In this document: positions 18,289 to 29,566 of the stretch, piece by piece | How positions within the stretch are numbered: position 1 is the first letter of the stretch | Layout of the letters: every line of letters starts with the position of its first letter | From: Deltaproteobacteria bacterium | GTDB lineage: Bacteria; Desulfobacterota; B13-G15; RBG-16-54-18 | NCBI GenBank assembly: GCA_016927065.1 | Contig: JAFGNJ010000005.1 | Location: forward strand, 239,564-303,563 | Length of the DNA stretch: 64,000 nucleotides | Direction of reading: 5' to 3' | Translations under genes and position numbers: made by a program | The notes under the pieces: generated by a model | Database searches by the model: none | What the model saw: only the letters and a program-made list of their open reading frames with translations | What the model was told of the DNA's origin: nothing

Positions 18289-19161
18289 ATGGTTGGTATT
18301 CAAAAACTATTTTTTATAGCGCTCTTTGTTTTATCCGTCCTTAGCCTCATGGCTTGTGATAAGACCACCCCCCACAACGGACAGGAACTAGCAAGGATAA
18401 ACGGTCACGTAATCACTCTGGAGGAGTTTGAACAGGAGATGGAACGGCTTTCGGAATCTGCTAAGCTACAAATGATCTCCGAAGAGGGAAGAAGAAAATT
18501 TTTGCAAGAACTTATAAGTCAAGAACTCCTCTTGCAGGAGGCAAAAAAGAAGGGATTGCACGAGAACAAAGAGATACTGGCCAATGTAGCGATGTTCAAA
18601 AAGGGATTAATCATCAATGCCCTTGGAGAAGAACTCTGTTTAGGCAAGGATGAGGTGAGCGACGAAGAGGTGGAGGCTTATTATCGTTCGAACAAAAAGG
18701 AGTTTGTTCTGGAGCAGGTGTGGATTAGACATATACTGCTGAAGACGCTCGAAGAGGCCAAGGAGATTAAAAAACGGTTGCTTCGAGGCGAGGACTTTAT
18801 CACGTTGACAAAACAATACTCTATTTGGATGCCTACTAAGATGAAGGGGGGAGACCTGGGCTATATCAAGCGGGGTATGGTGCATAAATCATTTGAAGAG
18901 GCCGCCTTCGCCTTGAAAAAACAAGGAGATTTGAGCGATATCGTTAAAACGGAGTTTGGTTATAATATCATTCGTCTTGAAGACAAGATAGGTCCCCGAC
19001 AGCTCACGTTTCCCGAGGTGCAAGAAGAGATTAGAAACAATCTCAGGAAAAAAAAGAGGGAGAAAATTCTCACTGCCTATCTGCAAAACCTACGTGAAAA
19101 AGCTCAAATCCACATTTATGAGGCACTGCTTGCCGCTGAGGAGGAAGAAGAGGTTCCATGA
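18289..19161 (+). CDS. Parvulin-type peptidyl-prolyl isomerase, predicted lipoprotein
   Basis: Lipobox-like LSLMAC; SurA-N domain; RHILLKTLEEAKEIKKRLLRGEDF...GGDLGYIKRG rotamase motif. Confidence 0.85.
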   Translation: MVGIQKLFFIALFVLSVLSLMACDKTTPHNGQELARINGHVITLEEFEQEMERLSESAKLQMISEEGRRKFLQELISQELLLQEAKKKGLHENKEILANVAMFKKGLIINALGEELCLGKDEVSDEEVEAYYRSNKKEFVLEQVWIRHILLKTLEEAKEIKKRLLRGEDFITLTKQYSIWMPTKMKGGDLGYIKRGMVHKSFEEAAFALKKQGDLSDIVKTEFGYNIIRLEDKIGPRQLTFPEVQEEIRNNLRKKKREKILTAYLQNLREKAQIHIYEALLAAEEEEEVP

Positions 19162-20147
19162 GAGATAACCTCAGCTTCAGATATTGCATATCAAGCCTCA
19201 TGATCTTGGCCGTTGCTGTTCTGAACTCATGCACGAACAAGATGCCATCCCATATAGTAGCGGAGGTTAACGGCGATTCTATCACGGTAGAAGAATTCAC
19301 AGCGGAATTCTTTCCATTAATTAAAGGATACCACACCACACTCTCCCCGCAAGAAGAAAAGTCCCTCTCAAATTTGAAAGAGGCCTTCTTGGATCAGCTC
19401 ATTGAAAAGAAGCTTATCCTGAGTAATGCCCAAACAATGGGGATAACGGTGAGCGAAGAAGAGGTGGAGGATGCCTTCTCCTATATTAAAAAGACCTATC
19501 CTGAAGGTGGGTTTGATGAAGTCGTGCACGATGAAGACTCTCTCAGTCAGTGGAAAGAAAAATTATACCAGCGCCTTGTGATCGAAAAGGTTATCAGCCG
19601 GGTCTCTCAGATTACCGCCCCCATTGATGAGGATGTCTTGCGGAAGTACTACCAGGAACATCAATCGGAGTTTACGGTACCTGATCAAGTAAGGGTGCGA
19701 CAGATCGTAGTAAAAGAGCGCAAAGACGCGGAAAATATTCTGAGGATGCTCAAGCAGGGGAAATCTTTTGAAGATCTGGCACGACGACATTCTATCGGGC
19801 CTGAGGCAGAGCAGGGAGGTGACCTTGAGTTTTTCGGCCGTGGGGATATGCCGGAAGAGTTTGACGTGGTATTTTCTCTTAAAGAAGGAGAGTTGAGCGA
19901 TATCGTGCAGAGCCCTTATGGCTATCACATTTTTCAGGTCGTCTCCAGGCGAGGACAATCGGAACCGCAATTTGCTGAAGTCAAGGATCAGATTAAGAAG
20001 AAGATCGTCCGAGAGGAGGAAGAAAAGGCATTTCAAGTGTGGTTGAAACAGGCCAAGAAAAAGGCCCATATTAGAATAAATAGAGGGGCCCTTGAGGCAA
20101 TAGGACTTCCTGCTGCTCAACAGGAGGAAGTACAGAAGAATCCATAA
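19158..20147 (+). CDS. Parvulin-type peptidyl-prolyl isomerase, predicted lipoprotein
   Basis: Signal plus Cys (AVLNSC); VRQIVVKERKDAENILRMLKQGKSFEDLARRHSIGPEAEQGGDLEFFGRG. Confidence 0.87.
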   Translation: MRDNLSFRYCISSLMILAVAVLNSCTNKMPSHIVAEVNGDSITVEEFTAEFFPLIKGYHTTLSPQEEKSLSNLKEAFLDQLIEKKLILSNAQTMGITVSEEEVEDAFSYIKKTYPEGGFDEVVHDEDSLSQWKEKLYQRLVIEKVISRVSQITAPIDEDVLRKYYQEHQSEFTVPDQVRVRQIVVKERKDAENILRMLKQGKSFEDLARRHSIGPEAEQGGDLEFFGRGDMPEEFDVVFSLKEGELSDIVQSPYGYHIFQVVSRRGQSEPQFAEVKDQIKKKIVREEEEKAFQVWLKQAKKKAHIRINRGALEAIGLPAAQQEEVQKNP

Positions 20148-20162
20148 AGGAGGTGAATTTAG

Positions 20163-21131
20163 GTGATAAAAAGAATAAGCCTTGTAATTTTTATTTTTTT
20201 CTTGTTGATCCCCTTTCCTTCGTCAGCGAAGGTGTTCGATCGAGTAGTTGGAGTTGTGGATGGTGAGGTGATAACCCTCGCCGACCTTGATGAAGCAATG
20301 CCGCAGTATGGGATGGTAAACATCCTTGATGCAGGGAACCCTTTAGACAAGGAAATGAGGCTAAACCAGGCGCGCAAGGCAGTCCTGCAATCGTTAATTG
20401 AAGAAAAAATGTTACAAAAGACGGCTAATCGCCTTGGAATCAAGGTTGGTACCGAAGAAGCGGATAATGCTTTCGCAAAGATGAAGGAGGATGGGAAAAT
20501 AGACGACGCCCAAGCAGAAAAGGAACTCATTAGACAGGGATTTAGCGTAGAAGGGTATCGACATTTTCTCACGGTACAAATCAGACGAGCCCGGATCATT
20601 GAGTCCCTCATCAAGCCTAACATATCAATGGCCGAAGAAAAGCTACGGGAATATTATCAAGCTAACATAAATAAGTATCAATCCCCCGAGTTGAGGGTGA
20701 GCCAGATAGTGATTCAGGTCCCCCCTGAACCTCAAGCCAAAGATTGGGAGGCCGCCAAAAAAAAGATGGACATGGTGTTGGAAAATCTGAAGAAGGGGGC
20801 GACATTTGAAGAGATGGCTCGCCAATACTCGGATGACTCGACATCGGCCAGTTCGGGAGGAGATCTCGGCTTCTTCGCAAAAGGAGAGATAATGCCGTTA
20901 CTTGAGGCGGTGGTTTTCAATATGAACGTGGGAGAGATAAGTGAAACCCTTCAATCCGCTCAAGCACTCCATATCTTCAAGGTGACGGACAAGAGAGAAG
21001 GAACATTGTACTCCTTTGACGAAATCAAAGAGCGGGTCATGGCAGATTACTACCGAGAAGAGGTGACAAAACACTATATCAAGTGGCTGGATGATTTAAA
21101 GGCACGTTCAAACGTGGAGGTAAAGCTTTAG
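20163..21131 (+). CDS. surA: SurA-like periplasmic peptidyl-prolyl isomerase
   Basis: Signal peptide then VFDRVVGVVDGEVITLADLDEAMP; parvulin domain YSDDSTSASSGGDLGFFAKGE. Confidence 0.85.
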   Translation: MIKRISLVIFIFFLLIPFPSSAKVFDRVVGVVDGEVITLADLDEAMPQYGMVNILDAGNPLDKEMRLNQARKAVLQSLIEEKMLQKTANRLGIKVGTEEADNAFAKMKEDGKIDDAQAEKELIRQGFSVEGYRHFLTVQIRRARIIESLIKPNISMAEEKLREYYQANINKYQSPELRVSQIVIQVPPEPQAKDWEAAKKKMDMVLENLKKGATFEEMARQYSDDSTSASSGGDLGFFAKGEIMPLLEAVVFNMNVGEISETLQSAQALHIFKVTDKREGTLYSFDEIKERVMADYYREEVTKHYIKWLDDLKARSNVEVKL

Positions 21132-22197: not shown

Positions 22198-22716
22198 TCA
22201 CGGCTTCAAAAGATCCCACGTTGCTGGAGTTACAACCCCATTAGGCTGTAACCCATTGGCCCGCTTGAACTCAATGATAGCAATCCACGTCTCTTTATTC
22301 CAGACGCCGTCAACCGGCCCGTTATAATACCCCTTCACCTTTAATGCCCGTTGAATATCTATAAGAGGGACATCCACCTCTATCATGGAACATGCGCCAG
22401 CTGGAGGACACGTGGGGTTACAGTACGGTGCGCACGAGGGTGAACAGGTGGGACTGCAATTGGGTGCGCAGGGGTAACACGTGGGGCTACAGGAAGGGGT
22501 GCAAGAGGGCGTACACGTGGGGGTGCAGGTTGGGCTACACGCAGGGGCGCACAGATGACGAGGGGAACATCGCCACGCCACGTCAGTGCCGTTAGCGGCC
22601 TTGATCTCAGGGGGATCAAAGATACCCTTGATGCCAAACAACAATCCCATGTAGAGACCGGCGAGGTACTTCAACGAGTTCTTGATAAAACCCCTTCTGC
22701 TCTCTTTGCGAGCCAT
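22198..22716 (-). CDS. Tat-signal, Cys-rich (CxPx repeat) protein with a C-terminal peptidoglycan-binding domain; candidate modified substrate of the adjacent radical SAM enzyme
   Basis: MARKESRRGFIKNSLKYLAGLYMGLLFG (Tat motif SRRGFIK), CAPACSPTCTPTCTPSCTPSCSPTCYPCAPNCSPTCSPSCAPYCNPTC tract, then PG_binding_1-like IDIQRALKVKGYYNGPVDGVWNKETWIAIIEFKRANGLQPNGVVTPATWDLL. SD taaggaggtgaca ATG at 22716. Confidence 0.9.
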   Translation of the reverse strand: MARKESRRGFIKNSLKYLAGLYMGLLFGIKGIFDPPEIKAANGTDVAWRCSPRHLCAPACSPTCTPTCTPSCTPSCSPTCYPCAPNCSPTCSPSCAPYCNPTCPPAGACSMIEVDVPLIDIQRALKVKGYYNGPVDGVWNKETWIAIIEFKRANGLQPNGVVTPATWDLLKP

Positions 22717-22784: not shown

Positions 22785-24080
22785 TCACTTTTTTTGCCAC
22801 CGTCCACGATAGGGGTCATAGAGGCAACGGGGGGACTTGTCATAGAGGTTTCCCCTTTGGGCATAGGCCAGTGGGCGGCAATCATGGCAGGCGTATCGAT
22901 ACTCGCAATCCTGACATACCTCCACCTGGTCCTTGGTTAACCCCCAAAGCTCTTGCAACCTTTTTTTTTGCAGTGAATCCTTCAAGTTCTCCTCACAGAC
23001 ATTACCGACTATGAGGTCACGTGCGAATATACAGGGCATCACCTCTCCCGTTGCGGTGACGGCCACTTTCCCGGCCCAACAGCTATTGTATCGTTTATTG
23101 TAAAAAAAGGAGTGCCTGTCGGTCCAGAAATTGGCCGCCGTCATGTGGCCGGAAAACTCGCGGGGAAGATCGTGGGGTTGTATCTCCTGAGAACACCCTC
23201 TCCCCGTGGGTCTGACAGGGTCTGGCAACTTATACTCTACCCCCATTTCGTGAAGGAATTCCACCGTCGCGGAGAGATCATGCTGGTTTCGTTTCATGGC
23301 AATGACGGCCACCCGCACCGGAACATTGTTATCCTTAATAAGGGTAATGGCTTTTACTGTCTTGGCATGACTTCCCTGAACCCCTGTAATGCTATCGTGG
23401 GTTTTCGGATCGGCGGAATAGAGGGTAGTGGCGATATGCACGCCGTTATCCCTCAAAAAAGGGATACGTTTTTGGGTGAAGAGGGTAAGGTTAGAGAAGA
23501 TCTCAACAAAAGTGTATCCTGTGCTCCGGGCAAAGCCGACCAATGGAAAAAGGTCTTTTTGCAGGAGTGGTTCACCACCGATAAACTGGACCTGGGAGCA
23601 ACCGAGATCTCGTGCCTGTCGCAATATGAGCTTCCACCCTTCAGCATTCACCCTGTCAGGTCCGGATGAGGAGAGGCAGTCACCGTAGCAATGGATGCAC
23701 CTGAGATTGCAGGTGGAGGTCACCTCCAACCAGATAAACTCCAGGGTGGCCTCAGGAATAGCTTCCTGAGATACGTTTCGGGGCGGAAAAGGGGTATCGG
23801 AGCTCTCCACAATTCCCATATCGATCAATTGATCCACGAACGTCCGGCGCCGTTCCTTGAATATGTTATGCTGAATGGCGGCCACTACGTTGTGGGCAGA
23901 GCGGTTAAGAGAGTAAACCGTCCCTTCCGAAAGGTCATACAAGGCGCTTCTGGCCACACCCTGTATTAAGACGCATCCTTCCTTTAAACGAATATAGTGG
24001 AGACGTTTGCTCTTATCTCCTGAGGTCAGCCTTTGTTTGCCGTATGATTGTCTTGTGGACAATGATAAATCTCTTTCCAC
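22785..24080 (-). CDS. Radical SAM/SPASM domain protein, peptide-maturase-like
   Basis: STCNLRCIHCYGDC (CxxxCxxC), GGEPLLQKDL, C-terminal SPASM-type Cys set (SCWAGKVAVTATGEVMPC...CQDCEYRYACHDC...C), N-terminal domain (CVLIQGVARSALYDLSEGTVYSLN) resembling SPASM peptide maturases. Confidence 0.9.
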   Translation of the reverse strand: MERDLSLSTRQSYGKQRLTSGDKSKRLHYIRLKEGCVLIQGVARSALYDLSEGTVYSLNRSAHNVVAAIQHNIFKERRRTFVDQLIDMGIVESSDTPFPPRNVSQEAIPEATLEFIWLEVTSTCNLRCIHCYGDCLSSSGPDRVNAEGWKLILRQARDLGCSQVQFIGGEPLLQKDLFPLVGFARSTGYTFVEIFSNLTLFTQKRIPFLRDNGVHIATTLYSADPKTHDSITGVQGSHAKTVKAITLIKDNNVPVRVAVIAMKRNQHDLSATVEFLHEMGVEYKLPDPVRPTGRGCSQEIQPHDLPREFSGHMTAANFWTDRHSFFYNKRYNSCWAGKVAVTATGEVMPCIFARDLIVGNVCEENLKDSLQKKRLQELWGLTKDQVEVCQDCEYRYACHDCRPLAYAQRGNLYDKSPRCLYDPYRGRWQKK

Positions 24081-24143
24081 GACGTATTATACAGCCCCTC
24101 CATCTCCCCGGCAACTGCCGTACGAGGGTCTGTAGAAAGAGTG

Positions 24144-28159: not shown

Positions 28160-29566
28160 TTAGAACCGATACATCAAAGCACTTCTGAAGGCCCAGGGAT
28201 CATCAGGCGTTACACCACCATTAAGGCTGAGCCCCTTGTGGGCGAACAGATACCCAAAAGCGGTGTTCCAACTCAGGTTCTTGTAGAGCTTCACTTCGGT
28301 GCCGAAGCAGAACTCCCAGCCGATGCTCTGATCGTCGTCCGCATCGCCGTTATTCTGACTCAACCTGTCTATGGCGTCGCCATCCTCTTCGGTATCACCG
28401 ATGTAGCTGACAGCACCGCCGACCTTGAGCCAGTCGAAGATCTGGTATTCGACATACGCGCCTAACCACCACGCACCGACTAAGTAGGTGGCCGGTAAGT
28501 TACCGGTCATTGGACCACCCACGCCGCCGCTACTCATGAAATAGCCACCTGCACGCCACACGTTATGAATACTCGTCATACCCGCTAAGCCACTGGAGTT
28601 GGGACGGGGGCGCTGGAAGGTGCTGTCACGATTGTCGGCAGTAAAATCATCCCAGTCCCTTCCCATGCAGTAGTACGCCTGCATGCCGACCGTAAGCTTA
28701 TTAATCAGCGCGGCCAAGTCGAACCTCGTGAGCCAGGAACCGTAATTGACATCATTGCCACCGGAAACAGTCCCCGTGCCGTCTGACCAGACAAGGTCTA
28801 ACTCAGGCCTAATGGTTACTGAACCCATGCCGATCTTCCCTTTCAGGTTCAAGCCGAGCCACCACAGCTGCTCATAATCAAGGTTACCCGCAACGAGGTT
28901 ATTAGCACCATATCTCACATTGTTGTACATAAAGTACACCTGCGGTGTAACCGGACCGAGAGGCATGTCGACTGCAAACTGATATATCTCAGTACCGTCG
29001 GCCGCTGTAAATTCATCTGAGTCTGCCGGCTTGGCATATCTAAACATGACGTTCATCTTGATGGGCTCGACCTTGAGGGTCGCTGTTACAGCAGCGCCGT
29101 CATTTGACAGCAAGACCTTGCTGGCAAGACTCACGTCCTGCACACCGATCCGAAACCATAAAGGCAGGTTGGGAGGCATGCGGAAATCGACGTAGCAGTG
29201 CTTTATTTCCACCGCGACTGCATCCGCGCCCCATCTGCCCATGAAGCCACTCCCGCCTGCGCGTGTCGTGGTCCCCTCACCCCAAAAATTGGAGTCCATC
29301 TCGAAGTAAAAGACCCCATACAGGTCAGGGCTGGCCTGCGCCTTGATCAGGAGTCGACCCCTCATGAACATCCAGGAGCTCATCTCATCAAGGTATGCAT
29401 TGTTAGCAGCAAACGGGTTATTCCCTGGAACAGCACCGTTCCTGGCCGCCGCATACATCACGTTGATATACCCGCTGCCGGACCAATCAATGGCCATGGC
29501 AGGTATTGACCACGCAGCCAATATTCCTACTACCAATCCTATTAGTAGTGCCTTTTTCATCAGCAT
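28160..29566 (-). CDS. Outer-membrane beta-barrel porin-like protein
   Basis: Signal peptide (LLIGLVVGILAAWSIPAMA), alternating strands, C-terminal aromatic (ALMYRF). Confidence 0.75.
   Translation of the reverse strand: MLMKKALLIGLVVGILAAWSIPAMAIDWSGSGYINVMYAAARNGAVPGNNPFAANNAYLDEMSSWMFMRGRLLIKAQASPDLYGVFYFEMDSNFWGEGTTTRAGGSGFMGRWGADAVAVEIKHCYVDFRMPPNLPLWFRIGVQDVSLASKVLLSNDGAAVTATLKVEPIKMNVMFRYAKPADSDEFTAADGTEIYQFAVDMPLGPVTPQVYFMYNNVRYGANNLVAGNLDYEQLWWLGLNLKGKIGMGSVTIRPELDLVWSDGTGTVSGGNDVNYGSWLTRFDLAALINKLTVGMQAYYCMGRDWDDFTADNRDSTFQRPRPNSSGLAGMTSIHNVWRAGGYFMSSGGVGGPMTGNLPATYLVGAWWLGAYVEYQIFDWLKVGGAVSYIGDTEEDGDAIDRLSQNNGDADDDQSIGWEFCFGTEVKLYKNLSWNTAFGYLFAHKGLSLNGGVTPDDPWAFRSALMYRF

Follow-up and report, generated by a model that had tools for sequence, protein, structure and literature searches.

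The window, meaning the whole stretch of 64,000 nucleotides analysed here, carries on its minus strand an ORF for a protein of 172 amino acids (ATG at 22716, stop codon ending at 22198), of which its own genome holds a single copy. A first-pass annotation had described this protein as a three-part combination of a twin-arginine signal, a run of Cys- and Pro-containing units and a peptidoglycan-binding end. This description was correct, and the Tat motif, the Cys-x-Pro array and the peptidoglycan-binding domain are all kept in relatives. A radical SAM (rSAM) gene lies directly upstream on the same strand, and, judged by the gap of 68 bp, the two genes probably form one operon. This operon contains no gene for a protease, an exporter or a second maturase. 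The features of the locus are collected in Table 1.

Table 1 Features of the array gene and of the rSAM gene beside it, with their positions in the window and the evidence for each.
Feature	Position	Strand	Evidence
Array protein: Tat-type N-terminus, Cys-x-Pro array and PG_binding_1	22198..22716	-	ORF, Pfam, relatives, selection
Residues 1-31: twin-arginine N-terminus MARKESRRGFIK and hydrophobic stretch	22624..22716	-	motif in relatives, model
Residues 50-109: Cys array CSPRHLCAPACSPTCTPTCTPSCTPSCSPTCYPCAPNCSPTCSPSCAPYCNPTCPPAGAC, 15 Cys, 12 CxP(x)C units	22390..22569	-	sequence, shuffles, selection
Residues 119-170: peptidoglycan-binding domain PF01471	22207..22362	-	Pfam, E=1e-13
Radical SAM/SPASM enzyme, candidate maturase	22785..24080	-	Pfam, NCBIfam, conserved Cys in alignment A3
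PqqD/RRE-like region, rSAM residues ~28-97, candidate precursor-recognition element	23790..23999	-	hhalign
Promoter-like site TTGCCG-17-TATAAT upstream of the rSAM gene	24086..24114	-	consensus match only

The array protein and its radical SAM neighbour

The Tat motif that had been read in the N-terminus, SRRGFIK, occupies residues 6-12 and is kept in the relatives. Together with the hydrophobic stretch and a TatC encoded in the same genome (228 bits), this S/T-R-R-x-F-L-K-like motif makes the protein a predicted Tat substrate. A helix spans residues 7-30 in a predicted model, with a pLDDT of 80 in the block 11-20 and 69 in the block 21-30; the single-sequence structure models are of poor quality (mean pLDDT 46 and 32). 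The C-terminal end was likewise identified properly, as PG_binding_1 is matched with 51.7 bits against a gathering cut-off of 23. In Pfam searches up to E=1, no metallothionein family matched the protein, and the only matches were peptidoglycan-binding domains and C_tripleX.

The array itself holds the 15 Cys counted initially, in exactly 60 rather than about 64 residues. Pro stands at position +2 of 14 of these 15 Cys. The Cys-to-Cys spacings are 6,4,4,4,4,4,4,3,4,4,4,4,4,6, and 12 of the 14 steps have the form C-x-P-x-C or C-x-P-C; arrays of identical composition that were shuffled 20,000 times contained a mean of 1.2 such units and a maximum of 6. Asp, Glu and the heme motif CxxCH are absent from the array, and the protein has no H-x-S repeats. 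Tandem repetition in the DNA of the array is weak (70% matches), and its codons are heterogeneous.

The neighbouring enzyme matches PF04055 (61.9 bits) and PF13186 (33.7 bits), both over the cut-off. Its motif CNLRCIHC, a CX3CX2C motif, and seven SPASM-type Cys (334, 350, 389, 392, 398, 401 and 419) are invariant across the relatives in alignment A3. It passes no cut-off among the best 25 NCBIfam models, the nearest of which are AhbD, TIGR04053, NirJ2 and a grasp-with-spasm maturase. The closest solved chains are those of SkfB and then PqqE, two peptide-modifying enzymes. Pfam gives no PqqD match; with hhalign, the N-terminal ~70 residues align to a PqqD profile built from 21 phylum sequences with a probability of 87.8%, an E-value of 3.3e-6 and a score of 33.8, compared to a best score of 19.0 among 60 column-shuffled controls. 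Since PqqD-like regions are the precursor-recognition elements of many RiPP enzymes (PMC8326336), the rSAM likely binds a peptide. Because the promoter-like site ends at 24086, 6 bases ahead of GTG 24080, the true start of the rSAM may lie further downstream, e.g. at TTG 24062.

Conservation, variation and loss in related genomes

By alignment, full-length relatives of the array protein occur in three other genera of the family, with 68-79% identity. All four family members carry SRR.FI[KT], in the variants SRRGFIK, SRRSFIK and SRRSFIT, and have the C-terminal units CYPC... and the peptidoglycan-binding domain in common. Their arrays contain 15, 16, 20 and 19 Cys and 12, 13, 17 and 15 C-x-P units, respectively, the last array including 8 masked residues. 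Because the relatives mix CxPC with CxPxC, so that the Cys spacing is 3 or 4, the conserved feature is Cys-x-Pro and not a strict 4-residue register. The strict register proposed at first is found in the window genome, apart from one unit and the two ends, and is not kept in the relatives. The comparison of homologues that had been named beforehand as a refuting test did not refute the architecture: the number of repeats varies, and the Tat motif, the pairing of Cys with Pro and the peptidoglycan-binding domain persist. The claim of a strict register was too strong.

Within the half of the array that the four genera share without gaps, every Cys and every Pro is invariant. Here pS is 0.52-0.74 and pN 0.03-0.11, resulting in pN/pS ratios of 0.06-0.20. 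The array is therefore under purifying selection, which acts on the protein. As the codons are heterogeneous and synonymous sites have diverged where the protein has not, the array gene is real and not a chance DNA repeat.

Among 395 genomes of the phylum, rSAM orthologues (E<=1e-35) were found only in the window genome itself, in G002, G005 and G006, and in the distant G345. The four family genomes among these, each from a different genus, are also the ones that encode a full array protein, and in each the two genes are adjacent. The four paired genomes are related, and their co-occurrence does not amount to four independent events. A further family genome, G007, from a fifth genus, contains a remnant at the site next to pdxA (L005 1501-1760, G007:C36), in which the N-terminal part of the rSAM (...LQFVWLEVTSK..., to about CX3CX2C) is joined directly to the peptidoglycan-binding tail of the target. 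Both the catalytic core of the enzyme and the Cys array are missing. The remnant is flanked by a TauE-like membrane-protein ORF and pdxA, as in G006. Read from the sequence, it appears to be a deletion fusion, as expected if neither gene is kept without the other; it could also be an assembly error of a draft genome.

The rSAM of G345, the sole more distant relative in this set, is 36% identical over the alignment. Upstream of it, at a distance of ~100 bp, is an ORF of ~83 amino acids with an SRRKFVK Tat motif and an array of 8 Cys in perfect Cxxx order (C-SAD-C-SIL-C-RYQ-C-MEQ-C-VNR-C-KEQ-C-VNR-C). This array has no Pro and the protein no peptidoglycan-binding domain. The enzyme has a C-terminal PqqD domain of its own (41.5 bits). 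G345 represents an independent, distant pairing of such an rSAM with a Tat and Cxxx protein. On the same contig (G345:C13, L149 / L246), a gene for an HprK-related kinase stands beside the rSAM gene (37 bits, below the cut-off) and a response-regulator-like ORF upstream, and the whole has the look of a small RiPP-like cluster. Outside the phylum, a relative of the window rSAM in Phocaeicola intestinalis (Bacteroidota) matches over positions 18-423, the N-terminal region included, and is located near a short Cys-containing peptide ORF. Other A3 matches in the class of G345 (E<=1e-30) were set aside as a group as general SPASM paralogues; they have E-values of 1e-31 to 1e-39, start near position 78-107 and do not contain the N-terminal region. 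Viral contigs gave no matches. On plasmids, the target was matched in its peptidoglycan-binding domain only, and the rSAM matches were general SPASM enzymes with <37% identity.

The CxPx run alone was uninformative as a family marker. A codon pattern of four CxPx units plus a further Cys, run over all GTDB genomes, gave >119 matches, most of which were short tandem repeats read out of frame or on the antisense strand, and gained no new family members. In-frame Cys-Pro-rich arrays do occur in putative envelope or secreted proteins of Parachlamydiaceae (L029, L044) and Planctomycetota (L053, L090), which are apparently unrelated to the window protein. A seven-Cys Cxxx pattern, applied to 331 phylum genomes, likewise returned mostly simple repeats and matched a backward control too; the genuine arrays that it detected are in proteins without this rSAM. 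An example is a secreted-looking ORF of 393 codons (L243 2139-3318, G211:C121) with an acidic C-D-D-x array of ~12 Cys; no related rSAM is present within the 8 kb examined.

Proposed maturation of the array protein

The data in support of a maturation system are the same-strand adjacency of the two genes, their joint occurrence, the G345 pairing, the decay in G007, the conserved Cys, the RRE-like region, the kinship with SkfB and PqqE and the selection on the array. We consider it probable, though well short of certain, that the pair makes up a maturation system of minimal size, with a dedicated radical SAM maturase whose target, the array protein, is exported by Tat and tethered to peptidoglycan. 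In the course of events that we infer, from the action of the rSAM on the array protein and the bond made to the use of Tat, the attachment to the wall in vivo and the final role, the substrate would be bound by the enzyme, probably via its PqqD/RRE-like N-terminal region, and the Cys-x-Pro units would be modified repeatedly in the cytoplasm. Most likely, Cys would be made into a thioether, or else Cys, the x residue or Pro would be altered in some other way. The finished protein would then leave via Tat, a route that suits cargo matured before export, and the PG_binding_1 domain would hold it in the wall or periplasm with a rigid Cys/Pro strip displayed. This may serve as a structural strip or as a metal- or redox-active surface.

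The variation of the array (CxPC or CxPxC, 15 to 20 Cys) narrows the possible modification site. CxPC units have no +3 residue, and a uniform modification would therefore be placed on Cys, x or Pro. Asp and Glu are the thioether acceptors of freyrasin- and Qhp-type systems (PMC8326336); because the window array contains neither, acceptors of these types are absent. A more far-reaching version, which we put forward tentatively and regard as somewhat doubtful, is that every Cys-x-Pro unit is processively turned into a cross-linked or rigid thioether/proline strip, so that the product would be a permanent modified envelope polymer of variable length and not a released peptide. The rSAM/SPASM gene, which is adjacent and apparently co-inherited and co-lost, lends strong circumstantial support to the earlier suggestion of a modified polymer displayed at the surface. 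As in RiPP systems, an enzyme of a modifying type stands next to the substrate, namely in each of the 4 family genomes that have the two genes and in the G345 analogue. The short precursor with a leader and a C-terminal core was not found: at 172 amino acids, with a central core and a C-terminal wall domain, the substrate greatly exceeds the usual RiPP precursor in size, which speaks against maturation, as does the lack of a protease, exporter or second maturase gene beside it.

The best-scoring named families of the enzyme are a further point against maturation, as they include non-peptide enzymes such as AhbD and NirJ2, all below their cut-offs. With AhbD, TIGR04053 and NirJ2 as the top NCBIfam scores, the rSAM might perform cofactor- or heme-type chemistry, the array being a scaffold or carrier for the product or a site of Fe-S or heme attachment at the wall. 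We regard this as highly improbable. The scores are far under the cut-offs (124 of 500 bits for the AhbD heme b synthase model), and both the PqqD/RRE-like N-terminal region and the full SPASM domain are features that peptide maturases typically have. The Phocaeicola enzyme, which shares this N-terminal region, is encoded close to an ORF for a short peptide with Cys, and the array has no CxxCH. It is unlikely, but less so, that the array protein is an unmodified wall-anchored thiol protein, whose strip binds soft metals or forms periplasmic disulfide cross-links, and that the rSAM acts elsewhere. An array of 15-20 Cys, without an acidic thioether acceptor in the window protein and with CxPC units resembling thiol-redox motifs, would suit such a function. 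Arguments against it are that the rSAM gene is conserved next to the array gene and decays together with it, that the distant G345 enzyme is likewise beside a Tat and Cxxx protein and that Pfam gives no metallothionein match. A finished strip that binds metals or has a redox function would in any case be compatible with maturation.

The pair might also form the proposed system with an enzyme whose effect on the array is epimerisation, methylation or C-C cross-linking instead of thioether formation. Changes of the C-C, C-O and cyclopropyl kinds are also made by SPASM enzymes, TvgB acts on a repeated TVGG core (PMC9062424), and in CxPC the Pro directly precedes the next Cys, which argues against any chemistry needing the +3 position. 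The x residues vary and Cys is conserved together with Pro, however, which points to sulfur chemistry and leaves this alternative with a rather low probability.

Relation to known systems

By analogy, the window pair would work most like the TIGR04117 and HxsA systems, in which the gene of a SPASM radical SAM enzyme adjoins that of a target with repeats. TIGR04117 (Syntroph_Cxxx, Cys-Xaa-Xaa-Xaa repeat radical SAM target) shares the N-terminal signal region, the 4-residue Cys repeat that follows and the adjoining rSAM gene. The window protein is not a member by score (12.7 bits, cut-off 50) and differs in the Pro fixed at +2, the mixed 3/4 spacing in its relatives and the C-terminal peptidoglycan-binding domain. 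The ~83-amino-acid ORF of G345 matches this model with E=3.5e-5, below the cut-off, over model positions 16-89 of 98. Across 297 genomes no protein exceeded the TIGR04117 cut-off, and only weak matches such as ferredoxin-like proteins were obtained.

HxsA (TIGR03979), of the His-Xaa-Ser system, is also a repeat protein encoded with rSAM maturase genes, HxsB and HxsC being its putative maturases (PMC9062424). Region 129-182 of the 190 positions of the HxsA model aligns to the window peptidoglycan-binding domain (E=2e-9), and only this domain aligns. At 37.7 bits against a cut-off of 121.65 the window protein is not a member by score; its repeat is Cys-x-Pro and not His-x-Ser, and it is paired with one rSAM, whereas the HxsA system has two. 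Because of this alignment, there is some precedent for a repeat with a peptidoglycan-binding domain next to rSAM genes, and the first impression of an unprecedented fusion of repeat core and wall domain is weakened by this analogous layout. No functional study of HxsA was found in the literature searched.

On the enzyme side, the grasp-with-spasm maturase TIGR04193, SkfB and StsB are SPASM radical SAM peptide maturases like the window enzyme. The SPASM part aligns to TIGR04193, but with 103.4 bits against a cut-off of 175 the window enzyme is not a member, and it is also below the StsB cut-off of 625 bits. In contrast to these systems, the window substrate is a long protein with Tat signal and peptidoglycan-binding domain. 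QhpD likewise acts on a protein and not on a released peptide, and installs several thioethers; mature quinohemoprotein amine dehydrogenase is periplasmic. The window array has none of the Asp/Glu acceptors, and no homology between the targets was found. The QhpD thioethers link S to Cbeta of Asp and to Cgamma of Glu (PMC8326336).

The new elements are the Cys-x-Pro array, the combination of a Tat signal with a peptidoglycan-binding domain and the evolutionary evidence linking the array to one rSAM. In the literature searched, mostly without subscription papers, there was no paper on this system, none joining rSAM, twin-arginine, precursor peptide and thioether, and none joining rSAM, peptidoglycan-binding, precursor peptide, repeat and RiPP. 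Research on rSAM-modified peptides has mostly dealt with short, released natural products. If the proposed maturation is true, the chemistry of such peptides would yield a structural or functional envelope component with its own Tat signal and wall domain. The parallel with the HxsA layout could turn wall-tethered rSAM-repeat proteins into a testable question, and, with only two genes, the unit is compact enough for tests in E. coli.

Elsewhere in the window, a 468-amino-acid ORF (28160-29566, minus strand) with a signal-like N-terminus and a porin-like look is matched by no Pfam family at E-values up to 1. Three tandem ORFs on the plus strand (18289-21131), upstream of pdxA, appear on reading to encode SurA/PpiC-like peptidyl-prolyl isomerases.
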